Assembly (NCBI GenBank): GCA_021776465.1
Contig: JAJFFU010000027.1
Span: forward strand, 1 to 33,887
Length of the DNA: 33,887 nt
Source: Parvularculaceae bacterium
GTDB taxonomy: Bacteria > Pseudomonadota > Alphaproteobacteria > Caulobacterales > Parvularculaceae
Reading direction: 5' to 3'
Within the stretch, counting starts at the first letter, position 1. The number at the start of each line of letters is the position of its first letter. Under the pieces are notes generated by a model, which was not told the origin of the DNA, ran no database searches, and saw nothing but the letters and a program-made list of their open reading frames with translations. Positions 1,000 to 21,357 of the stretch are shown here, one piece after another. The position numbers and the translations under genes are program-made.

Positions 1000-1010
1000 A
1001 AACTAAGTTT
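1000..1010. promoter_or_regulatory. AAACTWAGTTT palindrome, copy 1
   Basis: Exact AAACTAAGTTT, 7 bp after the stop of the preceding small frame and about 80 bp before the ASCH gene. It is the first of eleven exact copies in this window. The others are at 1705, 5203, 6405, 6922, 8185, 10246, 11690, 13388, 15825 and 21347 (start positions), and a half-matching copy lies at 13514-13521. The binding protein is unknown. Confidence 0.7.
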
Positions 1011-1089
1011 GTAAAATCCTTAAACCCTATAAGTGTAACTCAAATAATAAAATCATCCAATCTAACACGTAAAATAGTAGGTATAATCT

Positions 1090-1677
1090 ATGAAAGCACT
1101 ATGGTTAAAACAACCGTACGCGACGTTGATGTTGCACGGAAAGATCGAGACTCGCACTAGAAATACAAACGTAAGAGGGGATATTCTTTTGTGCTCCACA
1201 AAAACACCTTATTCACTTTCTCAACAACAAGAAATCAGTGGTATACATCAATCTGAACGAATCCACTCAATGTTAGGATTAGAAAACCTACCGAACAGTG
1301 TCGCGATAGGGATTGGAACATTAGTAGATTCAAGAAAAATGCAGCCAGAAGATGCTGATAATTGTTTTGTTGAGTATTCTGATCATAGGTGGTGTTGGGT
1401 ATTTGAAAATATCCATGCAGTTAAACCATTCTTTTTAAAAGGAAAACAAGGATGGAAAGAAATGGGTGAGCCCGATATTGAATTTACTCGTTCTCCTCAA
1501 TGGAGAGAAGAATCCTCAGAAATTCTATCAACACTGAATAATTATGATATCAAAACGACAGCAGGTCAGGTATTTATTAATTGTTCATATGGTAGTAAGG
1601 GATGGGAACAAAACTCTAAACCAGTTAAAATAAAACCCCACCACATTTCTAAAATCAGAAAAACCATACATTATTGA
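1090..1677 (+). CDS. ASCH-domain protein
   Basis: A 195-residue protein. The N-terminus (MKALWLKQPYATLMLHGKIETRTRNT...RGDILLC; quoted in parts) has the ASCH hallmark: a strand leading to QPYA.L...GK..ETR and then a basic RG-I-L segment. ASCH domains are PUA-like RNA-binding folds; some members cleave or deaminate nucleosides, and phages often carry them. The domain fills roughly residues 1-135. The last 60 residues are a lysine-rich tail of unknown role. The gene stands alone, with palindromes upstream (1000) and downstream (1705). The substrate cannot be read from sequence. Confidence 0.75.
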   Translation: MKALWLKQPYATLMLHGKIETRTRNTNVRGDILLCSTKTPYSLSQQQEISGIHQSERIHSMLGLENLPNSVAIGIGTLVDSRKMQPEDADNCFVEYSDHRWCWVFENIHAVKPFFLKGKQGWKEMGEPDIEFTRSPQWREESSEILSTLNNYDIKTTAGQVFINCSYGSKGWEQNSKPVKIKPHHISKIRKTIHY

Positions 1678-1704
1678 TTAGAGAAGCCTTATTACTAATT
1701 AGAT

Positions 1705-1715
1705 AAACTTAGTTT
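1705..1715. promoter_or_regulatory. AAACTWAGTTT palindrome, copy 2
   Basis: Exact AAACTTAGTTT inside TAAACTTAGTTTA, 21 bp upstream of the small gene at 1736. Its position just ahead of a start codon, as at 8185 and 21347, fits an operator-like role. Confidence 0.7.
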
Positions 1716-1735
1716 ACAAAACCAACTTTACGAAA

Positions 1736-1915
1736 ATGAAGGATGAAGATGATGGATTCAAACCAATCAAATGTAAATACAATAACCAAACCTATATGTG
1801 TATGTATTACAACGAAAAAATGAATTTTGCATTGATAACCTCAGATTTAAAAAACCATTTTTTTAAGTTTAAAGTACCGTTCTCAGATATTCAATTAGAA
1901 GATGACAGTAAGTAA
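1736..1915 (+). CDS. Short unknown protein (59 aa)
   Basis: ATG 1736 to TAA 1913-1915 encodes 59 residues beginning MKDEDDGFKPIKCKYNNQ and containing TYMCMYYNEKMNFALITS, then a basic FFKFKVPFSDI segment. The alternating hydrophobic pattern suggests a small beta-rich protein. The family is not recognised. A frame of this length in an AT-rich stretch could be chance, but its start follows a regulatory-looking palindrome and it fills an otherwise gene-free gap. Confidence 0.45.
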   Translation: MKDEDDGFKPIKCKYNNQTYMCMYYNEKMNFALITSDLKNHFFKFKVPFSDIQLEDDSK

Positions 1916-2132
1916 AGATTGTACTTTGATTAACCGATTCTATTTCCCTGGACACTTCAGTTTAAAACCCTCTTGATTTAAATTAGAGACGTATAAAATT
2001 ATCTATCACGATAATTATATATATATTTACCAACGCATAAACGAGAGCAAAACAACTTATAATTGAAAAATCAAAACACATTTTCCTGGTTTAACTGTTT
2101 GAAACACTGTGTTTACTGTTTCATCGTATTGT

Positions 2133-2615
2133 ATGATTAAAAATAAAAAAATACTAATCGTTGGTGGTGCGTGTAGCGGTAAAGATTACCTCGCAACACG
2201 TCTAGCAGAGTTGCATGGGTTCACGTTTGGTGTGTTTTCTACCTCGCGCCCTCCAAGAAAAAACGAAATCAATGGAGAGCATTACCATTTCTTAACCGAC
2301 AAGGAGTTTAATACCCAAAGTAAAGAGATGGTTGTGTTAGCGCATTGGAGAGAATGGGGATACGGGTTAAAAGAGATTGATTGGATTACCGATAGTGTAT
2401 TTATATTTACCCCTGCTTATTTAGATCAACTCTCGAAGGAGGAATGATCTAATTGTATGGTGATCTACCTTGATATACCTGAGTCCATCCGAAGAGATAG
2501 GCTTGTCAAGCGTAAAGATTCAGATGATGGTGTGGAGCAAAGGCTTGATAGAGATCGTCAAGATTTTGAAGGTTTTATTGATTACGACTTACGAGTAACT
2601 AACCAAGACTTCTAA
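2133..2615 (+). pseudogene. dNMP (guanylate-type) kinase interrupted by in-frame TGA
   Basis: ATG 2133 starts MIKNKKILIVGGACSGKD, whose GGACSGKD is a Walker A loop of the phage dNMP/guanylate kinase type. TGA at 2445-2447 stops it after SKEE, yet the same frame continues SNCMVIYLDIPESIRRDRL and a helical region ending LRVTNQDF at TAA 2613-2615. Both halves form one kinase with normal spacing: P-loop, then a YLD.PESIRRDRL.KR lid region. The interruption could be a recent nonsense mutation (one base from CGA, AGA or TGG), UGA readthrough, or a split gene restarting at ATG 2457. A strong AAGGAGGA lies at 2434-2441, unusual here. Thymidylate synthase follows one gene downstream, consistent with dNTP supply. 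Confidence 0.7.
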
Positions 2616-2617
2616 TA

Positions 2618-3253
2618 ATGAAGAAACGAGACTTTATAATGTACCTATCCTTATTAGGCACAGTGATAATGCTAATACCTTGTATGATTTCACAGATGTT
2701 CGTCGAGCAAGGTGAATTAAAAACAGCCCTAACGATTAACAATGTAATGGGGATAATTGTCATATTGGTTTCTTTCTCTTGTGTTGTTTTCTCTTACATG
2801 AAAGTCTCCCGTAAAGCAGCCCGTAGGTTAAGCCGTCAAACAAAAGAGGTACCGGAAGAAGACATAACACCCCGTCGTTTGTTTTTAAAAGACGATGTGG
2901 TTAAATTCCGCCTCCAATCATCTTTTCTGGCCCACTCATCTTTTCTGGCATCGTATCATGGAAACTCTTTCAGTGTGATCGAAGACGAAAGAACAGAAGA
3001 GTGGCTTGGTGCAGCGTGGGTAACTGACATCCCCCCCACTATAAACCCCGGACGACTTATTATGTATAACCGCGACGGGATTCCAAAAGACACGAGAAGA
3101 GCAAGAGTACAACATCATTCGGGTATAGGATCGACTGAAATAGAAATTGAAGACTTGGAGGATCATCAGAAACAAATCATCGAAAAACATAATATCGTCG
3201 GAGTTCTTGTTGATTCTTCCTTTTTAGAACTTGTAATAAAAGAAAAATCATGA
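2618..3253 (+). CDS. Two-helix membrane protein of unknown function
   Basis: A 211-residue protein. Two hydrophobic segments lie near the N-terminus (about residues 8-27 and 41-63), followed by a basic stretch (SRKAARRLSRQ) and a soluble domain of about 140 residues. The topology suggests both ends in the cytoplasm. The soluble part contains a duplicated SSFLA, from an 18-bp offset repeat of TCATCTTTTCTGGC at 2918 and 2936. The start lies 3 bp after the kinase stop, and the stop overlaps the thymidylate synthase start, so it belongs to the same operon. The family is not recognised. Confidence 0.65.
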   Translation: MKKRDFIMYLSLLGTVIMLIPCMISQMFVEQGELKTALTINNVMGIIVILVSFSCVVFSYMKVSRKAARRLSRQTKEVPEEDITPRRLFLKDDVVKFRLQSSFLAHSSFLASYHGNSFSVIEDERTEEWLGAAWVTDIPPTINPGRLIMYNRDGIPKDTRRARVQHHSGIGSTEIEIEDLEDHQKQIIEKHNIVGVLVDSSFLELVIKEKS

Positions 3254-4161
3254 AAGGATATATAGATATTGTTAAGCGCGTTATTAACGCCCCGGAAACA
3301 GAATGGAAACCCAACCGAACAGGGGTTCGAACAAAAGCTCTCAGCGGTGATCATTTCTACCATGATATGAGTGATGGGTTCCCGCTTGTTACAACCAAAC
3401 AAACTTACTTTAGGGGAGCTGCTGTTGAAACTGAGTTTTTCATCAAGGGATTAACCGATAAGCAGTGGCTCAAGGATAGAAAATGTAATATTTGGAACGA
3501 CTGGGCTAACCCGGTAGGTGTACAGGCGATACTGGATGAAGAAGCAGCCAACGGCACCGAAGCCGCAGGAGTATTCAGAACACCTGAACGAACAGAACAA
3601 CGCCGGAAGGAAATTCAAAAAGAGCAGAACGATCTTGGTAAAATTTACGGATACCAGTGGAGAAATTTCAATGGTGTAGATCAGGTGCAATCAGTGCTTG
3701 ACAAACTTCTAACCAATCCAGCGGATCGTCGAATGATTGTTTCGGCTTGGAACCCCGCGGAGCTCGAAGAAATGGCTCTTCCTCCGTGTCATTTGATGTT
3801 TCAGGTGATTGTTACTGGGGAAAACCTTGACACATTAAATCTAAACTGGTATCAGCGCTCTGTTGATCTCATGTTGGGTTTGCCATTTAATATAGCGAGT
3901 TATGCGCTCCTATTGAAGCTGTTTGCTAAACATGCGGATATGAAAGAAGGGGTTCTTCGTGGATTTCTTGGAGATGTACATATTTATGAGGATCAAATGG
4001 ACACAGCTAAAGCGCAATGCGAACGAGAGCCCTTATCTCTTCCTGATCTAAACATTTTTAAATCCCCGGGACATTTTGATTTTCTGTCGTGGACGCACGA
4101 GGATTATGAATTACTGAATTACGAACATCAGGGAAAATTGAATTATCCTGTGGCGGTGTAG
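3250..4161 (+). CDS. thyA: Thymidylate synthase (ThyA type)
   Basis: A 303-residue ThyA-type enzyme converting dUMP to dTMP with methylene-tetrahydrofolate in the cytoplasm. Visible landmarks are NRTGVRT (about residues 22-28), the DRR pair at 159-161, the catalytic Cys180 in ALPPCHLMFQ, the QRSVD phosphate-binding segment at 202-206, and LPFNIASYA with Asn214. It is longer than the 264-residue E. coli enzyme, mainly through an insert at about residues 92-128, as in phage forms. The final PVAV matches the usual ThyA C-terminus. Its start overlaps the previous stop by 4 bp. All key residues are present, so it should be active. The first parS site begins 12 bp after the stop. Confidence 0.95.
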   Translation: MKGYIDIVKRVINAPETEWKPNRTGVRTKALSGDHFYHDMSDGFPLVTTKQTYFRGAAVETEFFIKGLTDKQWLKDRKCNIWNDWANPVGVQAILDEEAANGTEAAGVFRTPERTEQRRKEIQKEQNDLGKIYGYQWRNFNGVDQVQSVLDKLLTNPADRRMIVSAWNPAELEEMALPPCHLMFQVIVTGENLDTLNLNWYQRSVDLMLGLPFNIASYALLLKLFAKHADMKEGVLRGFLGDVHIYEDQMDTAKAQCEREPLSLPDLNIFKSPGHFDFLSWTHEDYELLNYEHQGKLNYPVAV

Positions 4162-4172
4162 ATAAAACCAAA

Positions 4173-4188
4173 TGTTCCACGTGGAACA
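4173..4188. promoter_or_regulatory. parS site 1 (TGTTCCACGTGGAACA)
   Basis: A perfect 16-bp palindrome identical to the consensus of chromosomal parS sites, bound by ParB/Spo0J in Bacillus, Pseudomonas, Caulobacter and many others. It lies between thyA and the next small gene. Two identical copies follow within 850 bp, which argues against chance. Confidence 0.85.
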
Positions 4189-4192
4189 ATGA

Positions 4193-4450
4193 ATGAATAT
4201 TGTTATGATAGAGATAAACGAAAAAAATCAAATTGGAGAAACCCTACATCTATTATGTAGTGATGTAAGACATCATTCATTTAAGAAGGAATTGGATTTC
4301 CTAACCTCTATAGGAGGTGATAAAACAGAAAATCCGTCTATTTTAACTTTAGAAGTTCCTTTTACCGAGAAAGGTTATGATATGATTGGAATTGGAGACA
4401 CGCTATTACTAACGTTATCCAGAATTCCTGATCCAAATCCAACCAACTAA
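4193..4450 (+). CDS. Small unknown protein between parS sites
   Basis: An 85-residue protein starting 4 bp after the first parS site and ending 13 bp before the second. It has no signal peptide or membrane segment. The sequence alternates short strands and charged loops (ILTLEVPFTEKGYDMIGIGD near residues 50-70). An internal ATG at 4205 (MIEINEK) is an alternative start that would leave more room between the parS site and the ribosome. The family is not recognised. Confidence 0.55.
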   Translation: MNIVMIEINEKNQIGETLHLLCSDVRHHSFKKELDFLTSIGGDKTENPSILTLEVPFTEKGYDMIGIGDTLLLTLSRIPDPNPTN

Positions 4451-4463
4451 CAAAAACCGCGGA

Positions 4464-4479
4464 TGTTCCACGTGGAACA
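4464..4479. promoter_or_regulatory. parS site 2 (TGTTCCACGTGGAACA)
   Basis: A second perfect copy of the chromosomal-type parS palindrome, 291 bp from the first and wholly intergenic. Confidence 0.85.
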
Positions 4480-4639: not shown

Positions 4640-4655
4640 TATTAAAGATTAAATA

Positions 4656-4998: not shown

Positions 4999-5014
4999 TG
5001 TTCCACGTGGAACA
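4999..5014. promoter_or_regulatory. parS site 3 (TGTTCCACGTGGAACA)
   Basis: A third perfect copy, followed directly by a half site (TGTGGAACA, 5018-5026). It lies 57 bp upstream of the next operon. Confidence 0.85.
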
Positions 5015-5070: not shown

Positions 5071-6027
5071 ATGGAAATAAAAGCAGACATCAATCTAGAC
5101 AGGGCGGCAAGAATTCCTGTTGTCATGGAAATCAAAAACACCAGCGATAAATCAATTACAGTTAACCTGAACGATGTATTTTCTGGAAACGACCTTCCAG
5201 ATAAACTTAGTTTAGAGTCGTTAAAGCCTTATTATGTCTTCATACCTGAATACGAGGGATTGCAATTATCCCCTAAGCACCTATCCCCCGTCTCTAAAGA
5301 CCCCTTTTCTATTACTCTTCATAATACTCTTAATTCGCCAACACCTCTCACTTTCTTTGACGGAAACATTGGTGTTAGTGTTGGTGGTGTCGGAGGTAGT
5401 TTTTTAAAGGCTCGTGAGCGACGACAGAAAAGAAACAACAACGAACGTCTTACCCGTTCACGTGCGGATAAAAACCCTCCTCCTCGATTAGATTCCGTCT
5501 TCGCCCCTTTCCCTGGCTCCTTAGATGCCTGGGAAACCGAACAAGCATTGGCGGATGATAAGCGGACCCAGGGCGCCGCATTTACATTTGACAATGAAAC
5601 GGTGAGAGTGGACAAACCTCCGTCTATTGGTTTTCGAATCCAGAACCGAAGTAACCACATTCTCACAGCGAATATATTAGGCGGTAACAGTCCAGATATT
5701 TCAGTCACCCGTATAGAATCTGGCCTTGATAGGAATTTTGATGATTTTTTTAACCAGTGGGGGGAAGAATTTGCTGGCATAGACATGGTTTTCGATAACA
5801 GCCTGCAAATCGAGGAGGTCGTAACCCTACACAAACGATTAAACGGATTCCCTTCCTCCCGGGAAATTGTACCTAGTCAACATATAACATCTGGCCAAAC
5901 AGAATTAAGATCAGTCAGAATAATCACCCCACTCACTATAAGTATGGAAACGACAATATCCACACCTATCCACGGAAACTCAGTTTTACTGTTCTTCCTA
6001 CGTCCGTACCCAAACACCAGCACATGA
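5071..6027 (+). CDS. Beta-rich protein with two related domains (PEY family)
   Basis: A 318-residue protein, first of four coupled genes. Two segments resemble each other: about residues 17-40 (VVMEIKNTSDKSITVNLND) and about 186-207 (IGFRIQNRSNHILTANILGG), suggesting a duplicated beta-sandwich. Between them lie KLSLES and YYVFIPEYEG (about residues 48-63), the motif shared by the next three genes, then a basic, low-complexity linker (ARERRQKRNNNERLTRSR). No catalytic motif is visible. The similar IGF.I.N pattern in the 21379 gene suggests a wider family, possibly structural virion proteins. That is inference. AAACTTAGTTT at 5203 encodes KLSL. Confidence 0.65.
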   Translation: MEIKADINLDRAARIPVVMEIKNTSDKSITVNLNDVFSGNDLPDKLSLESLKPYYVFIPEYEGLQLSPKHLSPVSKDPFSITLHNTLNSPTPLTFFDGNIGVSVGGVGGSFLKARERRQKRNNNERLTRSRADKNPPPRLDSVFAPFPGSLDAWETEQALADDKRTQGAAFTFDNETVRVDKPPSIGFRIQNRSNHILTANILGGNSPDISVTRIESGLDRNFDDFFNQWGEEFAGIDMVFDNSLQIEEVVTLHKRLNGFPSSREIVPSQHITSGQTELRSVRIITPLTISMETTISTPIHGNSVLLFFLRPYPNTST

Positions 6028-6326
6028 CCAATCGACCAACACCAGCTAAAATATCAGACCGTGAGTACGAGTACTTATTCACTCCTGATTATGTAGGTTA
6101 TAAAGTTTCAGATAATCTTGAATTATCCAAAGGTTGGCATACCCTTTCACCAGAGGCGAAACACGCATTAACCGTCGCTGTTGTTGCGGTCATAGTGTTC
6201 TTTATAGTTGACGTTATATCCAAATCCTCAAAACCAAAACCAAGAAACCAATCCTCGTTAGCATCAAAAGCAATAAAAAGGGGTTTAACTACGGCTGCTG
6301 AAATACTCACAACGAAAAGGAAATAA
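6024..6326 (+). CDS. Small membrane protein of the PxPxKxS/PEY family
   Basis: A 100-residue protein. Its N-terminus (NRPTPAKIS, then YLFTPDYVGYKVS) carries the motif shared with the 6326 and 6901 genes. A single hydrophobic helix lies at about residues 47-66 (ALTVAVVAVIVFFIVDVIS), followed by a basic tail (KSSKPKPRNQ...TTKRK), so it is likely a single-pass membrane protein with a cytoplasmic C-terminus. The start overlaps the previous stop (ATGA) and the stop overlaps the next start (TAATG). The function is unknown. Confidence 0.65.
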   Translation: MTNRPTPAKISDREYEYLFTPDYVGYKVSDNLELSKGWHTLSPEAKHALTVAVVAVIVFFIVDVISKSSKPKPRNQSSLASKAIKRGLTTAAEILTTKRK

Positions 6327-6904
6327 TGAACCACCCTTCACCATCCAAGCTATCCGACTACACGCCCCCTGAATTTAAATTCATACCAGAATACCAACCA
6401 CTAAAAACTAAGTTTAAGAGCCTTCCCCCGTACGGCATGGGATATCTAAAAGATTATTTTGACTTAACCCCCAGTATATACGAGTTCATGTTAACCAACT
6501 CTTCAGACAGGGAAACCAAAGCCTATTTATTTGGAAGGCCAGCGATGTCCCACGACGGCGACGCGGTAAATCCAGAACACGTGAGCATCACTGTAAAAAA
6601 GAACGGACAAGAAACCGATGCCACTGAGTTTTTAGAACGAATCACCACAAGTCCACTATTCAATAGCTTCTGTTCGCTTAGAGCCAAAAAAAGCGAACAA
6701 TTCAAAAAGCTTCTTTGGTACAAGTATACTGCCGGAGGCACACGGGTTGCCACCCCATTGTCTTTTGATTCAGCTTTTATATCGCCTGACACAACAATGG
6801 TTAGTTCTGAACAGTGTATCACGGTGATTGACGGCTTCACATGGATCGAAACCACATTGCTACCCCTAACTTCCGTCACACTTATTCTTGAACAAAAGAA
6901 ATGA
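6326..6904 (+). CDS. Beta-rich protein of the PxPxKxS/PEY family
   Basis: A 192-residue protein. Residues 1-24 (NHPSPSKLS, then FKFIPEYQPL) carry the shared motif. The rest resembles one domain of the 5071 protein and the 21379 protein: SIYEFMLTNSSDRETKAYLFG (in parts) near 50-70 and a C-terminal segment TVIDGFTWIETTLLPL. It lacks membrane helices. It is coupled to both neighbours by overlapping stop and start codons. It may be a soluble or virion partner of the two small membrane proteins on either side. The role is unproven. Confidence 0.65.
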   Translation: MNHPSPSKLSDYTPPEFKFIPEYQPLKTKFKSLPPYGMGYLKDYFDLTPSIYEFMLTNSSDRETKAYLFGRPAMSHDGDAVNPEHVSITVKKNGQETDATEFLERITTSPLFNSFCSLRAKKSEQFKKLLWYKYTAGGTRVATPLSFDSAFISPDTTMVSSEQCITVIDGFTWIETTLLPLTSVTLILEQKK

Positions 6905-7230
6905 ACTACCCCTCCCCCGGTAAACTTAGTTTAGAAAAAAGCGATGCATCGTTTCTTTTCACGCCTGAGTATAAGGGGTATGAGGTTTCAACAAAGTTGG
7001 TTTCTAAAAAATCCAGACAAAGACGACCGGGATTATTTACGAGCAACAGCCAACGGCTGGATGGTTCATGGGAAGATGTATGGCGCTTGGATGGTACTAG
7101 TGAATCAACAATCCAACGTGAGCGCCGTAGACGAAGTTTTAATAAAATACTCGTATATGCCATGGTATTCGTAGCGGTTATTGTGCTTGGTGCAATTCTA
7201 TCAGGGCGTCGCGGTCGCCGCCGTCGGTAG
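6901..7230 (+). CDS. Small membrane protein of the PxPxKxS/PEY family
   Basis: A 109-residue protein. NYPSPGKLSLEKS, then FLFTPEYKGYEVS give the shared motif. Residues about 79-101 form one hydrophobic helix (ILVYAMVFVAVIVLGAILSG) ending in an arginine-rich tail GRRGRRRR, so the C-terminus should stay in the cytoplasm. It overlaps the previous stop by 4 bp and is the last gene of the four. AAACTTAGTTT at 6922 encodes KLSL, the same codons as in the 5071 gene, so the two loci may be related by duplication. Confidence 0.65.
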   Translation: MNYPSPGKLSLEKSDASFLFTPEYKGYEVSTKLVSKKSRQRRPGLFTSNSQRLDGSWEDVWRLDGTSESTIQRERRRRSFNKILVYAMVFVAVIVLGAILSGRRGRRRR

Positions 7231-7316
7231 GTATAAAATAATCCAGAAAAAATTAGCGCATATAAAAAAGATAATTATCTTTGAGAATAATTAAGATTTC
7301 ACTAAAGCAAAACATT

Positions 7317-8186
7317 ATGTCCAAAGAACAGCGCAGAGACGTTTTTTATCTTGACCCAGCGAAGATTGAGATTAGGGATGGTTTTAACGTAAGAACCGAC
7401 CTTGGCGATATAGAGTCGCTGGCTCAGAGCATCTTGGAAAACGGGGTAATGCAGCCCCTAAAAGGTTATCGTGGGAAATCAAAAAACCCGAAAAACTACA
7501 TAGTCACCAATGGACATCGTAGATTAACAGCGGTACGGTTATTAATCGAGAGAGGTCACTATTCTAATAGTGTGGACAGGCCCGACGACTCGGACAAGGA
7601 AGGCAAAATATTTATGCCTTTTATATTTGAGTCGCAGGGTTATTCTAACGAAAGACGGATATTCGATATGTTTATTCTCAACGACGGAAAACAACTGCTT
7701 CCGATCGAGCAAGCCGAGGGAATCGACAGGCTGTTAAACTATGGATATACCATTCCTGAAGTCGCGAAAAAATTAGGTAGGGAACCTATCTATATAAGTA
7801 ACCTCCACAGGCTCCATAATGCACCAAAAAAATTCAAAAACCTCGTTGGTCAAGACGTGATCTCATCCACGTACGCTATTAAATTAATGCAGGAACATGA
7901 GGATTTTGATGAGATACATGAATTGATTGAAAAGGCCCGGAACAATGGGGGTGGTTCTCCTAAAGCTAAAGTCACAAAAAAAGACGTTGCAAAAGTGAGT
8001 GGTAAGTTCAATTCTTTATCGGAGTTTAAAAAATGCGTGAAGGCTAACACAGAGAATGAGCCTCACTCCCACATGAAAGAGACCTTCAACTTACTACAGG
8101 ATATTCTTAACGGCAAGCTTAGTAATCAAGATTTCAACAGAATCTTTTACCAAGACCCAAACCAAACACGTATACCAGACGCGTAA
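7317..8186 (+). CDS. ParB-like (ParB/Srx fold) DNA-binding protein, NGHRR type
   Basis: A 289-residue protein read from ATG 7317 (MSKEQRRD); a longer TTG-initiated frame from 7281 is less likely. Residues 8-80 form a ParB N-terminal domain: a strand with I..GFNVR, then LAQSILENGVMQPL, then VTNGHRRLTAVRLL (about 64-76). NGHRR replaces the GERR box of classical ParB. A helix-turn-helix follows at about 147-170 (TIPEVAKKLGREPIYISNL). Classical ParB proteins are CTP switches that load on parS. Whether this variant binds CTP, the three parS sites at 4173-5014, or the AAACTWAGTTT palindromes (one lies at 8185, overlapping its stop) is open. No ParA gene is seen. Confidence 0.8.
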   Translation: MSKEQRRDVFYLDPAKIEIRDGFNVRTDLGDIESLAQSILENGVMQPLKGYRGKSKNPKNYIVTNGHRRLTAVRLLIERGHYSNSVDRPDDSDKEGKIFMPFIFESQGYSNERRIFDMFILNDGKQLLPIEQAEGIDRLLNYGYTIPEVAKKLGREPIYISNLHRLHNAPKKFKNLVGQDVISSTYAIKLMQEHEDFDEIHELIEKARNNGGGSPKAKVTKKDVAKVSGKFNSLSEFKKCVKANTENEPHSHMKETFNLLQDILNGKLSNQDFNRIFYQDPNQTRIPDA

Positions 8187-8195
8187 ACTTAGTTT
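8185..8195. promoter_or_regulatory. AAACTWAGTTT palindrome at ParB-like stop
   Basis: Exact AAACTTAGTTT overlapping the last two bases of the ParB-like stop codon and 7 bp before the next ATG. It is followed by ACACC, as at 11690, where the same TTTACACC context recurs. Confidence 0.7.
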
Positions 8196-8202: not shown

Positions 8203-8826
8203 ATGAGAGCGGAAATTACTTTAACGAACATGGACTTACTACAGGAGTATCGAGATGTCCCTGTAGATAAGATTGTGGCAGCGCATTTTGAGCCGATGGT
8301 TCAGTCTATGATTAAATTCTCTTCTTTAGCGGTGTTTAAATTTAGTAACGGCGTAAAGGTGCTTAAGCATCCCGAAGATTGGATTGGCCTGAGTAGTGAC
8401 CTTTTAAGGGTTTCGACTGAAAAAGAGATTGGCCGCATGTATAAGACTTATAAGGCTATTATCGGAATGTTGATGAACGAGTGTAAGTGGGCTAATATTA
8501 GCCGAACTATTAAACTCTTACAGGATGAAAACCTTGTACCTAAAGAATGGGTTCATGATCAAACTAAATTACAACAACTCGGATACGACATGCTATCTCA
8601 ATCATTATTAAACAGAGTCTACGATCTCCGAGCCGGAGCCAATGGATTAATTCTCATAAAAGAAAAGACGCGCATCCGTTTAGATTTCGTTCCATTCGAG
8701 TGCCATGTTCAAATGAACGTGATCACAAAAGATGAATACGAAGAGATTTTAAAAACCAATAGCTCATCTGATGCTGAGATATCGATGTATGCTACGGGTT
8801 GGAACTCAAACTCCACCGAAGCATGA
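8203..8826 (+). CDS. Unknown protein downstream of ParB-like gene
   Basis: A 207-residue soluble protein, mostly helical, with a charged N-terminal region and FKFSNGVKVLKHPEDWIGLS near residues 46-65. It has no signal peptide, membrane segment or recognised motif. It begins 16 bp after the ParB-like gene, with a palindrome between, and its stop overlaps the next ATG, so it is probably in the ParB-like operon. It could be a partition or replication accessory protein, but only context suggests this. Confidence 0.6.
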   Translation: MRAEITLTNMDLLQEYRDVPVDKIVAAHFEPMVQSMIKFSSLAVFKFSNGVKVLKHPEDWIGLSSDLLRVSTEKEIGRMYKTYKAIIGMLMNECKWANISRTIKLLQDENLVPKEWVHDQTKLQQLGYDMLSQSLLNRVYDLRAGANGLILIKEKTRIRLDFVPFECHVQMNVITKDEYEEILKTNSSSDAEISMYATGWNSNSTEA

Positions 8827-10238: not shown

Positions 10239-10733
10239 ATGACGGAAACTAAGTTTATAAAATCTTTAATCGGCCCGATAGATGACGATGGCTTAACGAA
10301 TAAAGCATTCAGAGATCATGTTAGGGTGTTACTTTCTCAGATTACTAATTACGATTACATTCCTAATATTCACACCCAAGCACTCGTCTCTTGTTATCAC
10401 GGAACAACGAGCAAAGAAAAAGCTAGAAGCATCATTAAAAATGGATTTAACCCCAACACTTTTTTCGCTCGCAATCTTGAGGATGCAATTTTTATGGGGG
10501 GCAAGCATGTGTTTCAGGTTTTGTTTCGCACCTGTGATCTACCTGAAAATTGGCAGGTAAGGTGTTTGGACAGGATTCCTCCCTGGCGAATACTTGAGCT
10601 ACGTACATATTCTAAATCGTCACCGTGGCACGAAAACAAAATCTTACAAAGTCAGTTCTATAGCGCTCGTCTTGAGACTCCGTATCAACAACCTCCTTAT
10701 GCTTTTAACGATTTATGGAAGAAATTAAATTAA
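10239..10733 (+). CDS. ADP-ribosyltransferase-like protein
   Basis: A 164-residue protein from ATG 10239 (MTETKFIKS); a longer TTG-initiated frame from 10206 is less likely. Residues 53-70 read YHGTTSKEKARSIIKNGF, and FFARNLEDAIFMGGKHVFQVLF follows (in parts). This is the ART/PARP-type layout, in which the Y/H-x-T-strand binds NAD and a second strand completes the site. Phages use such enzymes to modify host proteins or nucleic acids. The third catalytic residue cannot be assigned safely. A Tpt1-like RNA 2'-phosphotransferase fold is another option. AAACTAAGTTT lies inside the gene at 10246. Confidence 0.55.
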   Translation: MTETKFIKSLIGPIDDDGLTNKAFRDHVRVLLSQITNYDYIPNIHTQALVSCYHGTTSKEKARSIIKNGFNPNTFFARNLEDAIFMGGKHVFQVLFRTCDLPENWQVRCLDRIPPWRILELRTYSKSSPWHENKILQSQFYSARLETPYQQPPYAFNDLWKKLN

Positions 10734-11279: not shown

Positions 11280-11696
11280 ATGAAAAAAACACATTACGCA
11301 GATGGTCACGACAGGTACATGAGTGAAGTAGTATTTAAGGATAAACTCTTTAACAACACTAACAAAGAATTGCTTCAACGCTTTGCTGTTTACCACAAGA
11401 AAAACACCTCAATTTATCACGACTTTAAAGAGTTGGCGTTTCAGATGATATCTGCTGATAGGGCAAAATACTCCGCGTGGGTGGTGGTTAACGTGATTCG
11501 ATGGCGCCGAGACAGTAAGAGCAATAACAAGCTATTTAAGATCAACAACGATTTCATAGCAATATATGCCCGGATGTTTGCGGTGGAATTCCCTCAGTAC
11601 AAGGATTTCTTCGTTACAAGAAAAATGAAGCCTATCCGCAGTATCAGTCAGGAAGAGCGCGCCCGGATCAACGACGAAGAAAACTTACTAAACTAA
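11280..11696 (+). CDS. Conserved phage-type unknown protein
   Basis: A 138-residue basic protein. Landmarks are IYHDFKELAFQMISADRAKYSAW (in parts, about 46-68), VNVIRWRRD, and FKINNDFIAIYARMF (about 84-100). I have the impression of a widespread phage hypothetical family with an IRW...FKINN..YARMF core, but cannot name it. The aromatic and arginine content would suit nucleic acid binding. It starts 4 bp after DUF1643. A palindrome overlaps its stop codon. Confidence 0.65.
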   Translation: MKKTHYADGHDRYMSEVVFKDKLFNNTNKELLQRFAVYHKKNTSIYHDFKELAFQMISADRAKYSAWVVVNVIRWRRDSKSNNKLFKINNDFIAIYARMFAVEFPQYKDFFVTRKMKPIRSISQEERARINDEENLLN

Positions 11697-11700
11697 GTTT
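11690..11700. promoter_or_regulatory. AAACTWAGTTT palindrome at 11690
   Basis: Exact AAACTAAGTTT spanning the stop of the upstream gene and followed by ACACC, as at 8185. The next gene starts 42 bp further on. Confidence 0.7.
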
Positions 11701-11742: not shown

Positions 11743-12228
11743 ATGATAAGAGTATTTACACATAATAAGAACAGCTTCGACGCCTTAGTCAGAAACAGGG
11801 GGTTATCAAGCGATAATGTCGAGACTGAGGCCCCTCATGCTTTTTACATCTCAATAAACGATACTTGCGGAACTGATCAGGTGCCGTATTTTGAAAATAG
11901 AGAGAATGTACTGGTTCTCTTTTTTGACGACGTCACAGAAGACATTGAGGTTCCGGTGTTGGGAAGTGACATAACACTGACTGTAAAGGCTTTCACGATC
12001 GAACAAGCAAGAGAGGTAATTCATTTTTTAGAAAAACAGAAAGGTAGGCCAAGCTGTGTCGTTCATTCCGCAGTCGGAATAGCCCGCAGTGGAGCGCTGG
12101 GTGAGTTTGTAAACGATTATTTTAACGGGGATTACCACACTTTCAAAAGACAAAACCCCCGCATCCTCCCAAATGGAATGGTTTTACGATTACTTAAACA
12201 AGCATGGAAAGAAATAGATTACCCATAA
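11743..12228 (+). CDS. Tyrosine/dual-specificity phosphatase-like protein, catalytic Cys replaced by Ser
   Basis: A 161-residue protein with the phage PTP/DSP layout: an N-terminal beta region, a helix FTIEQAREVIHFLEKQ (about 84-99), then the P-loop VHSAVGIARSG at 107-117. The family signature is HCxxGxxRS; here His108, Gly112, Arg115 and Ser116 are kept but the nucleophile is Ser109 (codon TCC, one base from TGC). A C-to-S change usually removes catalysis while phosphate binding is kept, so this is probably a pseudophosphatase that binds phosphorylated partners. It could also be a sequencing error or a recent loss. It lies downstream of a palindrome in the ART-like/DUF1643 gene group. Confidence 0.7.
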   Translation: MIRVFTHNKNSFDALVRNRGLSSDNVETEAPHAFYISINDTCGTDQVPYFENRENVLVLFFDDVTEDIEVPVLGSDITLTVKAFTIEQAREVIHFLEKQKGRPSCVVHSAVGIARSGALGEFVNDYFNGDYHTFKRQNPRILPNGMVLRLLKQAWKEIDYP

Positions 12229-12892: not shown

Positions 12893-12971
12893 AAACTACA
12901 AAGGAATAAGAAGACTAAGCCTAATATTTTATTATCTTCGTAGATAACCGCGTTAATTTAACATAGATATT

Positions 12972-13385
12972 ATGAGCGAGTCCAATCGGCTTAAGGCGAT
13001 TCTGAAGAAGAAGAAGATTAATATGTACACGTTGGCAGTGGAAACCGGGGTGTCTGAGAAGAAAATAATAGCTCTGTGTGAGGACATGGATGAGGGTATG
13101 TACTTGAATACGGCTAACAGGATTTGTGAGTTTTTAAAATGTGATTTTGACAAAGTGTTTGGTGATCGAACCTACACACGTCTAAAACGCATGATCATGG
13201 AGCGAAACATCAGTCAAAAAGCTCTCGCTGCGGGATCAGATATAAAGCAATACAAGATTTCGAATTTATGTAATAACATAAACGAGAATGTATACATGAG
13301 CACCGCTAAGAGGATTTGTGAGTTTTTAGACTGCACCCTTGATGAAGCCTTCGGAGATCGTGACTACTCATTCGAGGACGCGTAG
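12972..13385 (+). CDS. Tandem helix-turn-helix (XRE-like) regulator
   Basis: A 137-residue protein made of two copies of a Cro/CI-type helix-turn-helix: residues about 6-64 (RLKAILKKKKINMYTLAVETG ... ANRICEFLKCDFDKVFGD, in parts) and 70-128 (RLKRMIMERNISQKALAAGSD ... AKRICEFLDCTLDEAFGD). The repeats share R-I-C-E-F-L.C..D..FGD. Two DNA-reading heads on one chain could bind palindromic DNA as a monomer. It stands alone with about 80 bp upstream containing a TATCTTCG element close to the Bacteroidota TAnnTTTG box. A palindrome (13388-13398) begins 3 bp after its stop. It is a reasonable candidate to read that motif. Confidence 0.75.
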   Translation: MSESNRLKAILKKKKINMYTLAVETGVSEKKIIALCEDMDEGMYLNTANRICEFLKCDFDKVFGDRTYTRLKRMIMERNISQKALAAGSDIKQYKISNLCNNINENVYMSTAKRICEFLDCTLDEAFGDRDYSFEDA

Positions 13386-13387: not shown

Positions 13388-13398
13388 AAACTTAGTTT
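13388..13398. promoter_or_regulatory. AAACTWAGTTT palindrome at 13388
   Basis: Exact AAACTTAGTTT 3 bp after the tandem HTH gene. A degenerate copy (CTAAGTTTACACC, 13514-13526) follows about 120 bp downstream, ahead of the glycosyltransferase gene. Confidence 0.7.
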
Positions 13399-13557: not shown

Positions 13558-15102
13558 ATGAAGCAAGTCATTAGCACATATAAAGAATTACAGCAGGACA
13601 GGTTCCGGGACTCTCAGTTCATAGATGATCATCCTGAGAAAAACATTCTTTTCATTAGCCCTCAGTTGTCGGGTCAGCACCTGTATAAATTCATCCTTCC
13701 TTATATAGTATTGTATGAGCAGAACTTATGGAATTCTGCCTTCACAAGCCTTACCAAATACAGTTCCGACAAACAGGTTGAGATTAAGGATTCTTTAATC
13801 CGTTCACATGAGATAATGTGGGCCGATTACGTGGTGATTCCGTTCACTACCCAAAACCTAGCAACTTCTGCCGGGGATGGTTTTAGTTTGTATCAGCAGA
13901 TCAGGGATATAAACCCTGAGGTAAAAATTATTTACCATGTTGACTACAATTATTATTTACTCCCCACTAGTCATCCGTATCATTCAAAATTTCAGGATCG
14001 TCAAGCAATCAAATCGGTAGAGGATAATATTTTTTACGCTGACACGGTGGTGGTTACTAATTTCTTGCTTCAGCAGTATCTCCATGATGTTTTTAAGGAA
14101 TTAAAAGAGACTGGCAGGTATAAAAACAGAGTGACGGGGGTTGCGATATCTTGCTTGCCAATGCTTTCAGACCCGGAGACTATTTTTGAGAACATGGTGA
14201 TCGAACATGATGATCAAAAGCCTAAAGAAGAGGAAGCTAACGCTTCTGACCAAGAAAACGAGCTGCCGGAAAATCCAGAATCAACTGATGAGGCGCCCGC
14301 GGCTGACGCCCCTAAAAACAAACCACCTTTACCGGAAGGCTTCACCCCCCCAACCATAAAAGACCTTCACGACTATTACACATCAAAGGGGTATGAGGAT
14401 GCTCAGGATGCGGCCATCGCCTTTATAACAGTACACGATAATCTTGGCTGGGTGTTGGGTAAGGAAAAGAAAGTGATAACTGCATGGAAAAAGCTTGCCC
14501 TTAGCTTTTACAAGCATAAAAAAGAGGAGTTCTCAGCACCTACTGTTGAGCCAGCTCCTATTAAAGTTGGAATTGTGGCCTCTAAATTTTACCATGACGA
14601 CATCAGGGCTTACGCAAAAGAATTGAGAGCCATTAAAGAAAAGTACGGTGATAATTTCCAGCTCGTTGTATTTGGCTATAACGGAGAGGACGAAGCCTAT
14701 CCCAACAACGCTCTTGAGGGTATAGAACATGAATATGTTCGACCTGTCACTATCAACCATTACTTTAAAACTCTATACAGCTTAAAATTAGATGCTCTTT
14801 TCATCCCTTTGCGCAAGACCGAGTATAATGAGACCTCTGAAAACTACAACAAGTTCATCGAGGCTGCCCTCTTGAAGGTTCCTGTTATCACCTACAATAT
14901 TTTCCCCTATTCGGAATTACTCACCAACGAATCAGATGGTTTTATGATTAACAAGAAGGCTGAATTGATAGAGCTTATAGGTCGATTAATAGACGACCCT
15001 TCTATTTTAAAGAAAGCTGGGCAGACCGCCATGGAGCTTGCTTTGGATAATTTCTGTTTTCACGACAATAATATGGAGTTGATCTCCAAAGTGTATTCAT
15101 GA
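13558..15102 (+). CDS. GT-B glycosyltransferase with inserted linker and helical domain
   Basis: A 514-residue protein from ATG 13558 (MKQVISTYKEL). Residues about 27-210 form a Rossmann-like domain (KNILFISPQLSGQHLYKF; VKIIYHVDYNYYLLP). An acidic, proline-rich linker at about 223-265 and a short helical module (DLHDYYTSKGYEDAQDAA, about 274-325) are inserted. A second Rossmann domain begins at IKVGIVASKFYHDD (about 339) and ends in the family-4-like FIEAALLKVPVITYNIFPYSELL (in parts) and a GFMI patch. The acceptor is unknown: surface glycans, virion proteins or modified DNA bases are possible. It overlaps the next gene (ATGA). Confidence 0.75.
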   Translation: MKQVISTYKELQQDRFRDSQFIDDHPEKNILFISPQLSGQHLYKFILPYIVLYEQNLWNSAFTSLTKYSSDKQVEIKDSLIRSHEIMWADYVVIPFTTQNLATSAGDGFSLYQQIRDINPEVKIIYHVDYNYYLLPTSHPYHSKFQDRQAIKSVEDNIFYADTVVVTNFLLQQYLHDVFKELKETGRYKNRVTGVAISCLPMLSDPETIFENMVIEHDDQKPKEEEANASDQENELPENPESTDEAPAADAPKNKPPLPEGFTPPTIKDLHDYYTSKGYEDAQDAAIAFITVHDNLGWVLGKEKKVITAWKKLALSFYKHKKEEFSAPTVEPAPIKVGIVASKFYHDDIRAYAKELRAIKEKYGDNFQLVVFGYNGEDEAYPNNALEGIEHEYVRPVTINHYFKTLYSLKLDALFIPLRKTEYNETSENYNKFIEAALLKVPVITYNIFPYSELLTNESDGFMINKKAELIELIGRLIDDPSILKKAGQTAMELALDNFCFHDNNMELISKVYS

Positions 15103-15485
15103 CCGCATCAAACACATATGGAACAAAAGATTTATTTTGGTTAAATTTAGACCAGAACCTTTCTATTGAACGCAGGGAAGAAGGCGTGGTGAGGCTTTAT
15201 CAAGAGAGGTATTCCTCTGGGGCGTTTGTTGATATGACAAAAACAGAAGCATGTCTGCTCCTCACCCATCTTGAAAGTAACAAGAATTCCCCTCGGGTTA
15301 AGGTGTCAAAAACAGGTGGGGTATTCCGGCTTCTTGAATGGGATAGTGATGGAACTGACGACACTACTATTGTGCTTTATTTAAAGGAAGCCACGGTTTG
15401 TTTAAGATGGCTAAAAGACTGGTACCATGACATGATAAAAAACAAAGGATGGAAAAAGAGCAATCAAGCCCCCAAGCAGAATTAG
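15099..15485 (+). CDS. Unknown protein after glycosyltransferase
   Basis: A 128-residue protein, mainly beta in the first half (FWLNLDQNLSIERREEGVVR) with a tryptophan-rich basic C-terminus (CLRWLKDWYHDMIKNKGWKK). It starts in the ATGA overlap with the glycosyltransferase and overlaps the next gene by 37 bp. The family is not recognised. Confidence 0.6.
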   Translation: MTASNTYGTKDLFWLNLDQNLSIERREEGVVRLYQERYSSGAFVDMTKTEACLLLTHLESNKNSPRVKVSKTGGVFRLLEWDSDGTDDTTIVLYLKEATVCLRWLKDWYHDMIKNKGWKKSNQAPKQN

Positions 15486-16021
15486 ACCTCATCGACCGCG
15501 CCAAACATTTCGCAATAGAGCGCCATGAGGCAGTCAGCCATCTTTACGACGGGGGGCCTTACGCGGTCCATCTTGATATGGCAGTCCACTTTTTTAACAG
15601 GTACATCACCTCTCTTGATGAGGATGATCAAATCCGTAAACATCAGCACGTCATAACCGCAGCTATTTGGCTGCATGACACTATCGAGGATTGTCGCCTG
15701 ACATATAACGACATCAAACAGGAATTCGGGCTTGAAGTTGCTGAGCTGGTGTACGCCGTGACTAATGAGAAGGGCCGCACGAGGGCCGAACGCGCCAACT
15801 ATGATTACTACGAAGGAATTCAGAAAACTAAGTTTGCCACCATTATAAAGTTGTGCGATAAACTCGCAAACGTTACTTACAGTCTAGGAACTGGCAGCAG
15901 CATGTTTGATAAGTATAAAAAAGAACACGAGTTTTTTAAAGATATGCTTTATGACAAATCGGCTCAAGAAGGTGCTCATGAAGACCTGTGGATGAAATTA
16001 CACCTTTTGCTAAATGATTAG
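15449..16021 (+). CDS. SpoT/MESH1-like HD phosphohydrolase
   Basis: A 190-residue HD-domain protein of the RelA/SpoT hydrolase type. Metal-binding positions are visible: His41 in VHLDM, His76-Asp77 in WLHDTIED, Glu80-Asp81, and Asp137 in LCDKLANV. The spacing and the YAVTNEKGRTRAERAN segment (about 102-117) match small alarmone hydrolases (SAH/MESH1), which remove the 3'-pyrophosphate of (p)ppGpp. No synthetase domain is present. In a phage this would prevent a stringent response or starvation shut-down. Activity on another nucleotide is possible. AAACTAAGTTT lies inside at 15825. Confidence 0.8.
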   Translation: MEKEQSSPQAELDLIDRAKHFAIERHEAVSHLYDGGPYAVHLDMAVHFFNRYITSLDEDDQIRKHQHVITAAIWLHDTIEDCRLTYNDIKQEFGLEVAELVYAVTNEKGRTRAERANYDYYEGIQKTKFATIIKLCDKLANVTYSLGTGSSMFDKYKKEHEFFKDMLYDKSAQEGAHEDLWMKLHLLLND

Positions 16022-18645: not shown

Positions 18646-18689
18646 CACCTTACCCACACACCACTGTAAACCCTTAAGCTTAATTTAAA

Positions 18690-19268: not shown

Positions 19269-19488
19269 CGGGGTTCTTTCTCAGTTGATTTCTGACCTTG
19301 AAGCGGTTGGATTTCAGGATGTTTCTAGAGAACGCCGCGGAGGGTACTTGTTCGTGAACACGAAAAAATGGGTCTACCAAATTACCGAGGTTGGAAAGCC
19401 GGACAATACTGATTCTAAAGACATTATGAGAATAGTACTTCGAAATAAACGAAAACTGTTTTGGAGACACATAATAAAAAGAAATTGA
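19234..19488 (+). CDS. Small basic protein overlapping upstream gene
   Basis: An 84-residue basic protein whose ATG at 19234 lies 35 bp inside the previous gene. VLSQLISDLEAVGFQDVSRERR and YLFVNTKKWVYQITEVG (in parts) look like an alpha-beta fold rather than a shadow frame, and 220 bp of it lie beyond the previous gene. The function is unknown. Confidence 0.5.
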   Translation: MTFCLHAHKHPNGVLSQLISDLEAVGFQDVSRERRGGYLFVNTKKWVYQITEVGKPDNTDSKDIMRIVLRNKRKLFWRHIIKRN

Positions 19489-19556
19489 TCTTGTATGCGT
19501 AGCTTAATGAGGGGGGCATCCATGACTTTAAAAACAACGTTAACTAAAATTTAATT

Positions 19557-20099
19557 ATGAACAATTGGACAAAAGGTATTTTAATTTTCTTGATCTCCGG
19601 GGGGTTGTTATTCGGAGGAATATATATAGGTCTGGATTGGCACACCAACAACAAAGACGTTTCGTTGCGTGCAGATTTTCAGGCGCAGGATGACGTATGT
19701 AAATCTTACTTTAAGACCATGTGGTCTATCATCCAAGACCACGCCAAAGTTGTGGATAAAACCTCAGATGATTTCTTGAAAATATACCAACCCTTAATGG
19801 AGGGAAGATACGGGGACGAAGGGGAGCCTCTCTTTGAATGGATTGCAGAAGATAATCCCGAATACACTCTCGATGCACATAGGGATTTAATGGTAACCAT
19901 TAATGCGACTCGAACCCAATTTCATGAGGAGCAAAAGAAGAAAATATCGATAAAGGCCGAGCATGATAAGTTGCGACAAAAGAAGCCTTGGAAATGGTTT
20001 ATTGATGATTCATCTGAGATTGTAATGATGATAGTAACAGATCAATACACTGAAGACACTTGGGAATCTGGCAGAGATGAACGTGAACTAGAATTCTAG
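19557..20099 (+). CDS. LemA-like membrane-anchored protein
   Basis: A 180-residue protein. One hydrophobic helix (about residues 8-26, ILIFLISGGLLFGGIYIGL) anchors it, leaving a mostly helical domain of about 150 residues. The pattern (SLRADFQAQDDVCKSYFKTMW, IYQPLMEGRYG, ATRTQFHEEQKKK; each in part) resembles LemA family proteins found in bacteria and large phages, whose function is uncertain. It is followed 1 bp later by a multi-helix membrane protein, a pairing that suggests one envelope-associated unit. Confidence 0.6.
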   Translation: MNNWTKGILIFLISGGLLFGGIYIGLDWHTNNKDVSLRADFQAQDDVCKSYFKTMWSIIQDHAKVVDKTSDDFLKIYQPLMEGRYGDEGEPLFEWIAEDNPEYTLDAHRDLMVTINATRTQFHEEQKKKISIKAEHDKLRQKKPWKWFIDDSSEIVMMIVTDQYTEDTWESGRDERELEF

Positions 20100-20100
20100 T

Positions 20101-21327
20101 ATGGGCATTTGGATTCCTCTTATATACCCATTTTTAATAGGTCTGGCCGCGCTATTCTATTTCAGGCACAAAGTTGTTTGGTGGGAATCCCTCATCCCGA
20201 TCGGCGTAGGCTTATTGTTCATTGCTGTCTTCCGCTTCTTTGTTATTACAGCGTTAACCAATGACACCGAATATTGGTCAGGGACAGTACACAAGGTAGA
20301 GTATTACGAGGACTGGAATGAATACATCCATAGGATTTGTTACCGAACTGTTTCCTGTGGTAAGAATTGTACAAGAACGGTGCCCTATGATTGCTCATAT
20401 GTTCAATACCATTCGAGTTATTGTGAGATAACTGACAACAACGGGTTGTCTAATCGTATATCTAAAAGCGAATATAAGCGGTTATCTAGACAATTCAATC
20501 AGACCCCTAAGTTTGTTGATCTCCACCGGAGTTACCACACTAATGACGGAGATAAATATAAGTTCCATTGGCAGGGTGAACGTGAAACCTGTGAACTTAT
20601 GGTTACCGAGCATAGCTATGAAAACAAAGTACAGGTTGCCAAGTCAGTTTATAGTTATCCAGAGGTAAGCGAGCAAGAGGTTAAACAGTACAAGCTATTT
20701 AACTATCCTGAAATTAAGAATCATAAGATGCCTTCTATTCTTGGAAAGGGGGGTGGTAATCGAAAAATGGGAAATGCCGAGTTCAATTGGCTGAACGCCA
20801 CGCTTGGCAAACCAAAGCAACTTAGAATCTGGGTATTATTATTCAATGATCAAATCCCCATCGCCGGACAGATGCAGGAACGGTATTGGAAGGGTGGTAA
20901 TAAAAATGAGTTCGTTATTTGTATTGGATTAACCGCAGATCAGGTAAAATGGTGTCATACTTTTTCGTGGTCAGACTCCCAAGAACCCAAGATAACCATC
21001 AGAAATTATGTTATGAATCACAGGGAGCTGGACTTATTAGAATTGGCACAATTTACTGGCCCAGAGCTTGAGAAAAAATTTAAGAGAAAGCAGTTTAAAG
21101 ATTTTGCTTACCTCACTGTTGAGCCTCCATTTTGGGCGATCATATGGTGTCATGTACTTGTGTTTCTGATCACCGTCGGGATAACCTTTTGGAACGTACT
21201 CAACGACTTTGATAATGAAAATTTTAACAGTCATTATCGAAGCAAGACAACAGAGCAATTCCTATGTAAAATTTCAGCATGGCGCGAAAAAATGCAACTA
21301 CGATTCAATAATTTGAAATGGTGGTGA
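20101..21327 (+). CDS. Large multi-helix membrane protein next to LemA-like gene
   Basis: A 408-residue protein. Hydrophobic helices lie at about residues 4-22 and 31-52 and near the C-terminus at about 343-366 (FWAIIWCHVLVFLITVGITF, in part). The large middle region (about 55-340) is cysteine- and aromatic-rich (RICYRTVSCGKNCTRTVPYDC), so it may face the periplasm with disulphides. The C-terminal tail is basic. No known domain is recognised. Together with the LemA-like gene it forms a two-gene unit. Confidence 0.65.
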   Translation: MGIWIPLIYPFLIGLAALFYFRHKVVWWESLIPIGVGLLFIAVFRFFVITALTNDTEYWSGTVHKVEYYEDWNEYIHRICYRTVSCGKNCTRTVPYDCSYVQYHSSYCEITDNNGLSNRISKSEYKRLSRQFNQTPKFVDLHRSYHTNDGDKYKFHWQGERETCELMVTEHSYENKVQVAKSVYSYPEVSEQEVKQYKLFNYPEIKNHKMPSILGKGGGNRKMGNAEFNWLNATLGKPKQLRIWVLLFNDQIPIAGQMQERYWKGGNKNEFVICIGLTADQVKWCHTFSWSDSQEPKITIRNYVMNHRELDLLELAQFTGPELEKKFKRKQFKDFAYLTVEPPFWAIIWCHVLVFLITVGITFWNVLNDFDNENFNSHYRSKTTEQFLCKISAWREKMQLRFNNLKWW

Positions 21328-21346
21328 TCGTGCCAAGTATAATGTA

Positions 21347-21357
21347 AAACTTAGTTT
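21347..21357. promoter_or_regulatory. AAACTWAGTTT palindrome at 21347
   Basis: Exact AAACTTAGTTT, 21 bp upstream of the ATG of the 21379 gene, whose product is related to the PEY-family proteins. It is the last exact copy; none was found in the remaining 12.5 kb. Confidence 0.7.

Follow-up and report, generated by a model that had tools for sequence, protein, structure and literature searches.

Dispersed palindromes on two contigs

The window examined here (the whole stretch of 33,887 nucleotides, contig C170 of assembly GCA_021776465.1, binned as a Parvularculaceae bacterium) carries, scattered in and between its genes, copies of the exact 11-letter palindrome AAACTWAGTTT. This palindrome is the motif under study. 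The surrounding genes encode, among others, a thymidylate synthase, a ParB/KorB-like protein, a protein with tandem helix-turn-helix (HTH) domains and a canonical ParB.

All eleven copies reported by the first-pass annotation were found. Intergenic copies lie at 1000-1010 (AAACTAAGTTT; centre 85 bp upstream of the start at 1090), at 1705-1715 (AAACTTAGTTT; 20 bp 5´ of an ATG at 1736 that, judged by eye, opens a short reading frame below our 60-aa cut-off) and at 21347-21357 (AAACTTAGTTT; centre 27 bp upstream of the start at 21379). Other copies stand at gene ends: 8185-8195 (AAACTTAGTTT) shares bases with the stop codon of the ParB-like gene and leaves 7 bp to the start at 8203, 11690-11700 (AAACTAAGTTT) overlaps the stop of gene 11280-11696 with its centre 48 bp upstream of the start at 11743, and 13388-13398 (AAACTTAGTTT) begins 3 bp past the tandem-HTH gene. 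Copies within genes are those at 5203-5213 (AAACTTAGTTT; gene 5071-6027), 6405-6415 (AAACTAAGTTT; 84 bp past the start of gene 6326-6904), 6922-6932 (AAACTTAGTTT; 26 bp past the start of gene 6901-7230), 10246-10256 (AAACTAAGTTT; a few bases past the start of the gene ending at 10733) and 15825-15835 (AAACTAAGTTT; gene 15449-16021).

In 100 dinucleotide-preserving shuffles of the window, the motif occurred 0.09 times on average and once at most. When up to one mismatch is allowed, the window holds 15 matches against 2.05 expected. Only four matches are gained in this way and two of them are altered at the centre base alone, hence the arms of the palindrome are tightly fixed. These two centre variants may be functional; they lie at 3428-3438 (AAACTGAGTTT, centre G, within the thymidylate synthase gene) and at 5976-5986 (AAACTCAGTTT, centre C, close to the end of gene 5071-6027).

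The complete assembly (3.43 Mb, 250 contigs) contains 31 exact copies: 11 in the window, 19 on contig C131 (148,517 bp) and one on contig C27, the only copy in the remaining 3.24 Mb. They are packed more densely in the window, with 11 in about 21 kb, than on C131, with 19 in 148.5 kb. The earlier suggestion that the motif marks one functional block finds no support, because the 19 further copies span C131. That the last 12.5 kb of the window are empty is nothing unusual, since C131 lacks the motif up to position 13,760 and, further along, over another stretch of 15,965 bp. Both contigs are similar in GC content (0.402 in the window, 0.406 on C131), and together they carry tRNA genes for all 20 amino acids. 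The window covers 19 of these (23 genes, 27782-32877); Gln is found on C131 only, whose tRNA genes (Gln and two Leu) lie near 134-590 and 147461-148073. The tRNA complement and the common motif suggest that window and C131 are parts of a single replicon, which would measure at least some 182 kb. We refer to it as the element.

With any base at the centre (AAACT N AGTTT), the two contigs hold 33 copies against 0.54 expected, which makes it by far their strongest palindrome; the next distinct one, ATTAT N8 ATAAT, has 12 copies. Flanks T...A are favoured (50% of flanks) and extend the site to TAAACTWAGTTTA, that is TAAACT N AGTTTA, an odd-centred perfect 13-bp palindrome present in 10 copies where 0.05 would be expected.

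Could the motif be a modification, restriction or uptake signal of the host, or an effect of chance or composition? Chance is excluded by the shuffles and the expected counts. A host signal could be linked to the restriction-modification pair that the element probably carries according to its Pfam matches. However, the nuclease of this pair matches the MvaI/BcnI family, whose recognition site differs from AAACTWAGTTT, the rest of the assembly has its single copy (the true host being uncertain), and of two Bacteroidota genomes, one lacks the 13-bp form and the other has it once. We consider this whole group of explanations very improbable.

Position and spacing of the sites

Genes were called by a simple open reading frame (ORF) rule that misses genes shorter than 60 aa. 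Counted by their centres, five of the window sites fall between called genes, one (11690) overlaps a stop codon and five lie in genes, in agreement with the first-pass division into six between genes or at stops and five inside genes. As background for placement tests we used permuted words of the same composition as the motif. On window and C131 together, 14 of the 30 copies are intergenic, compared with 18.0% of 823 permuted-word matches (p 3e-4). Further, 11 of the 30 are centred 0-35 bp ahead of a called start, compared with 10.6% of the same matches (p 1.5e-4). The Bacteroidota -7 promoter box was tried as an identity of the motif and rejected: its required G is mostly absent and, by eye, the centre base does not depend on gene direction.

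The sites on C131 are spaced more evenly than uniform random positions (coefficient of variation 0.62, p 0.022). This regularity, the spread of sites over most of C131 and the location of some of them deep within genes would suit a role in DNA structure, such as condensation, nucleoid-like coating or packaging, instead of transcription; ParB-family proteins can indeed spread on DNA or condense it. The excess of sites just upstream of starts nevertheless fits control of transcription better, and KorB with cytidine triphosphate (CTP) gave no condensation of operator DNA in vitro, according to excerpts of PMC11790492. A structural role in place of transcription control therefore appears to us unlikely.

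A probable separate partition system

The element carries canonical parS independently of the motif. Three perfect 16-bp copies of TGTTCCACGTGGAACA, at 4173-4188, 4464-4479 and 4999-5014, lie within 850 bp between short genes, where 0.00 would be expected; the same sequence occurs in work on parS of Pseudomonas aeruginosa (PMC4368675). A canonical ParB is encoded at 33260-33886 on the forward strand (ParB_N PF02195, E 1.9e-29; HTH_ParB, E 2.5e-5) and is truncated by the contig end. Parallels exist, since both the motif and parS are palindromes and those of parS are bound by ParB-family proteins, so AAACTWAGTTT might be imagined as a further set of partition sites for the canonical ParB. AAACTWAGTTT differs from the 16-bp parS sequence, however, and some 12 kb separate its nearest copy from the parB gene. 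The three parS copies are the likely target of this ParB and together with it probably constitute a plasmid-type partition system. The dispersed motif therefore probably has another job: partition is an unlikely role for it, and the earlier idea that its copies are partition sites finds no support. That the canonical ParB nonetheless reads them we regard as highly improbable.

Candidate readers and known systems

Of the readers named by the first-pass annotation, which also include the tandem-HTH protein at 12972 and an XRE protein at 22828, the ParB/KorB-like protein (7317-8186, forward strand, 289 aa; HTH_ParB PF17762, E 3.2e-10) is the best candidate, on account of the KorB-operator geometry of the sites and the analogous arrays in some phages that bear homologues. 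We rate the chance that it is the reader somewhat above even. Homologues were found in 304 phage records (E<=1e-3) and 504 plasmid records (E<=1e-5), and in alignments with homologues a GHRR-type motif and the stretch NDGKQLLPIE of the protein line up; a family-wide alignment was too diverged for use in a scan. Matches in the PDB are to Spo0J (E 3.3e-6), ParB and Noc, with KorB (8qa8) as a weak one (E 0.0066).

We suggest, with slightly more confidence than doubt, that AAACTWAGTTT and its extended form TAAACTWAGTTTA are operators or loading sites of this protein and serve replicon-wide repression on the element. Its dimers would bind the odd-centred palindromes dispersed over the replicon, some by gene starts and some in genes, and the bound protein would repress transcription throughout, like KorB on IncP plasmids. 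By extrapolation from KorB, it might possibly load in the form of a sliding clamp that depends on CTP. For plasmids, work on KorB has shown that clamps of the ParB family are capable of repression over long distances.

The resemblance to KorB and its operator OB on IncP plasmids (RK2, R751) has several sides. In both cases the replicon encodes a ParB-family protein with HTH_ParB (here the candidate reader), the site is an odd-centred 13-bp palindrome, sites occur about once per 5-6 kb, and they are dispersed at gene starts and within genes. The operator is given as TTTAGC(C/G)GCTAAA in a part of PMC2680271, and excerpts of PMC11790492 describe OB as 16-bp. When the blind palindrome scan used in this work was applied to the first 50 of the 53.4 kb of R751, the top palindrome was TTAGC N GCTAA with 10 copies, at gene junctions and in genes, with the extended form TTTAGC N GCTAAA. 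The element differs in its half-site, in having A/T at the centre where the KorB operator has G/C, in that no KorA homologue was identified on it, and in being a virus-like replicon with lysis-gene matches. A ParA-type (ParA/IncC) family is absent from the Pfam families listed for 210 ORFs of the element (25 of 26 and 21 of 21 families listed; short and boundary-crossing ORFs excluded; contigs incomplete).

The protein at 12972-13385 (forward strand), in which PF13443 matches two stretches (E 1.5e-22) as HTH domains of the Cro/C1 type, is the chief rival among other replicon regulators; it would act in the style of a phage repressor on operators and stoperator-like sites. A motif copy begins right behind its gene, as noted above, two HTH domains per chain could bind a palindrome, and a control contig described below has a dispersed palindrome array with no ParB-like protein detected. 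Repressors of the mycobacteriophage L5 type use up to about 30 dispersed sites (excerpts of PMC6550527), which matches the roughly 30 dispersed and often intergenic sites of the element. In the same excerpts L5 stoperators are asymmetric and predominantly in one orientation, unlike the perfect palindromes found here; the comparison with L5 made in the first-pass annotation thus finds no support in its literal form, and stoperator-like repression may apply all the same. The arms of the motif are only 1 bp apart. Spacing for HTH dimers is usually wider, and the geometry of the motif also appears in phages with ParB-like homologues. We therefore keep the tandem-HTH protein as a rival and not as the favoured reader; a regulator of this kind seems to us rather unlikely to read the motif.

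A second palindrome, TTATC N6 GATAA, offers this protein a better target, because its spacing is the usual one and it lies 32 bp before the tandem-HTH gene (exact copy 12932-12947, measured from its centre). There are 7 exact copies and 27 with up to one mismatch, several of them 26-80 bp upstream of starts. One with a single mismatch (7275-7290) has its centre 34 bp upstream of the ParB-like gene; C131 copies include those at 31028 and 47485. Altogether the palindrome is found 32-44 bp upstream of the ParB-like gene, the tandem-HTH gene and two C131 genes, which by inspection of the per-set Pfam matches appear to encode SSB and a restriction enzyme. TTATC N6 GATAA could thus be the operator of the tandem-HTH protein, by analogy in the role of KorA beside KorB; it is possible that this protein reads the second palindrome, or the motif as a rival reader.

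Short palindromes that are scattered over large DNA and have one reader each are also known from Noc (Noc-binding sites, NBS) and MatP (matS). They lie on host chromosomes, differ in sequence from AAACTWAGTTT and are not known to be tied to gene starts.

Palindrome arrays in other replicons

For comparison we set in advance a threshold of log10p -5.5 or better for an N1-centred palindrome in a blind palindrome scan. Homologue-bearing replicons were hand-picked from the listed matches and are not a random sample: 11 including the window, then 19, then 4 more. Phage R16L (its protein is identical to that of R22L) and the genome of Agrobacterium phage Milano were left out. The control set consisted of 20 IMG/VR contigs picked up through a helicase, each scanned over at most its first 60 kb.

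Nine of the 19 homologue-bearing replicons pass the threshold: the window element, R22L, Agrobacterium phage OLIVR4, its congener 7-7-1, Vibrio phage R01, its congener S3, E. coli phage ep3 and two plasmids. In the P. aeruginosa plasmid, the palindrome may be the parS of a second ParB encoded there. Erythrobacter phage R22L has 25 copies of GAAGT N ACTTC (GAAGTNACTTC) against 0.23 expected (log10p -41). Its annotated stretch contains 23 of the sites; by eye, 8 of these 23 are followed by an annotated start at a distance of 10-47 bp, much like sites of the window element. The spacing of the R22L sites is more even than uniform random (p 0.002). In the follow-up, four relatives of the R22L protein were taken, from Carli, Lumi, AH2 and a Manatee Spring phage. 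Sphingomonas phage Carli has 30 copies of GGAAA N3 TTTCC (GGAAANNNTTTCC) against 0.1 expected (log10p -63), about 2 kb apart over the whole genome and again more even than uniform random (p 5e-5); GAAAT N ATTTC is present 16 times. OLIVR4 has 8 copies of TACAA N5 TTGTA, 6 with CAAAT N ATTTG. The half-sites AAACT, GAAGT, GAAAT and CAAAT (window element, R22L, Carli, OLIVR4) all fit NAANT, a pattern noticed post hoc. The letters of a site are not shared between viruses, given that AAACTWAGTTT was not found in 8 homologue-bearing records nor GAAGTNACTTC in 4 relatives of R22L. In Xylophilus phage Lumi, TTACT N5 AGTAA occurs 21 times, and 17 of these copies fall in the final third of the genome, from 58 to 83 kb; its six N1 sites are partly duplicates within repeated ends.

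A number of results weigh against the ParB/KorB-like protein as a general or local reader of such sites. As for the protein itself, it has no Pfam ParB_N match at E<=1e-3, its homologues share just 20-32% identity over the alignments, and AlphaFold models of it and of the 5071-6027 product are uninformative (pLDDT, the predicted local distance difference test, 35 and 31). The window's own sites show no significant regularity of spacing (p 0.29). As for other replicons, 10 of the 19 with a homologue stay below the threshold, including Salmonella phage Vi II-E1, Klebsiella phage GP-1 and Delftia phage RG-2014, and 4 of the 20 control contigs pass it; without the window and same-genus repeats the proportion is 6 of 16 versus 4 of 20 (p 0.21). 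The palindromes of OLIVR4 look like ordinary promoter operators, and in the follow-up no such array was seen in Burkholderia phage AH2 (6 copies of GACAC N9 GTGTC) or the Manatee Spring phage. Other readers can evidently yield arrays of this kind, because one of the passing controls, G073 (loci L209-L211), has a strong array, with GAACG N CGTTC present 14 times in 60 kb, and no ParB-like protein was found there. Two controls matched the ParB-like profile, G064 (no array) and G079 (array; weak match). The association between ParB-like proteins and palindrome arrays is therefore strong in a few cases and suggestive, unproven for the family.

On the element, the array is real, replicon-wide and of KorB-operator geometry; from its sequence we propose that it binds a protein, for which the ParB/KorB-like one remains our choice. 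A broader idea can be offered tentatively, and we give it less than even chances. Several unrelated bacterial viruses (this replicon, R22L, Carli, 7-7-1/OLIVR4) may share an undescribed system, in which a partition-independent KorB-type protein loads at 8-33 odd-centred palindromes and silences or coats the genome. The arrays are near genome-wide and evenly spaced in three cases; the sequence would change from virus to virus, while geometry and the pattern NAANT-N-ANTTN would stay. If this is true, some viruses would control their whole genomes by sliding clamps that load every 2-7 kb, and ParB-like proteins annotated in phages without a known function would gain a testable one. The uncultured element is not needed to test the idea, since R22L and Carli have been isolated and their hosts are named. 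In the open-licence PMC literature, against which alone novelty of the arrays was judged, searches for the motif, for phage ParB-like or KorB regulators and for ParB-linked, evenly spread phage repeats listed no paper describing such arrays; this is weak evidence of novelty.

The element and its host

The start regions of 209 called genes, both contigs pooled, show no Shine-Dalgarno signal: the sequence is present in 6.7% of them, compared with 10.5% in a control stretch. They are A-rich at -12/-11 and -5 to -3, a pattern that we take to be typical of Bacteroidota. Contig C27 has a GC content of 0.58, and its genes read as alphaproteobacterial by inspection, with no taxonomic call behind it. 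Since it differs from the rest of the bin, the element probably comes from another source, its true host being uncertain. One end of C131 (L012:7990-8517) passes via a tRNA-Leu to a glnB-like gene that bears a Shine-Dalgarno-like sequence, and is probably an assembly chimera with another organism.

Searches for relatives gave the following. In viral contigs, the ParB-like protein, the ATPase and the 957-aa, 394-aa and 1160-aa proteins had no relative, the thymidylate synthase matched 1 locus at 36% and the SNF2 helicase 59 loci; the motif is in none of these 60. In genome contigs the ATPase had no match, and the IS1595 transposase matched 15 loci, of which the four most complete, at 43-44%, are too distant to name a host. 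Across 62 genomes of the bin's own family, the ATPase was matched only in the source genome itself. Neither the ATPase nor the ParB-like protein matched in 395 Bacteroidota genomes, a negative that is uninformative. By tblastn against phages, the ATPase and the 683-aa protein had no match and the topoisomerase gave two weak records.

Pfam families among the 210 ORFs include thymidylate synthase, topoisomerase IB, SNF2 helicase, SSB, M15 peptidase, holin and glycosyltransferases, as well as three IS1595-type transposases. PHROGs were run on half of these ORFs (25 of 50 families listed) plus ten large proteins. No terminase, portal or major capsid protein is among the Pfam and PHROGs families listed; a tail-fibre family is among the PHROGs matches. 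C131, a large and virus-like contig, shows topoisomerase IB, a weak HerA-type ATPase match, an M15 endolysin, a holin and numerous small proteins that have a membrane segment near the N-terminus. It may be an unusual, perhaps tailless, virus, a reading tempered by the tail-fibre match and by the scope of the scans just given.

A few smaller observations concern single genes. A predicted permuted tmRNA was found with the tRNA genes. At 30269-32112 on C131, an MvaI/BcnI-type nuclease and an N6/N4 methylase (assigned by inspection) stand beside an IS1595-type transposase and are probably the restriction-modification pair mentioned above. One ORF of the Pfam-scanned set matches Tad6, a type I Thoeris inhibitor family (E 9.4e-18). 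Finally, the pattern P-[ST]-P-x-K-[LI]-S is common, by eye, to the N-terminal parts of the products of the adjacent genes at 6024, 6326 and 6901.

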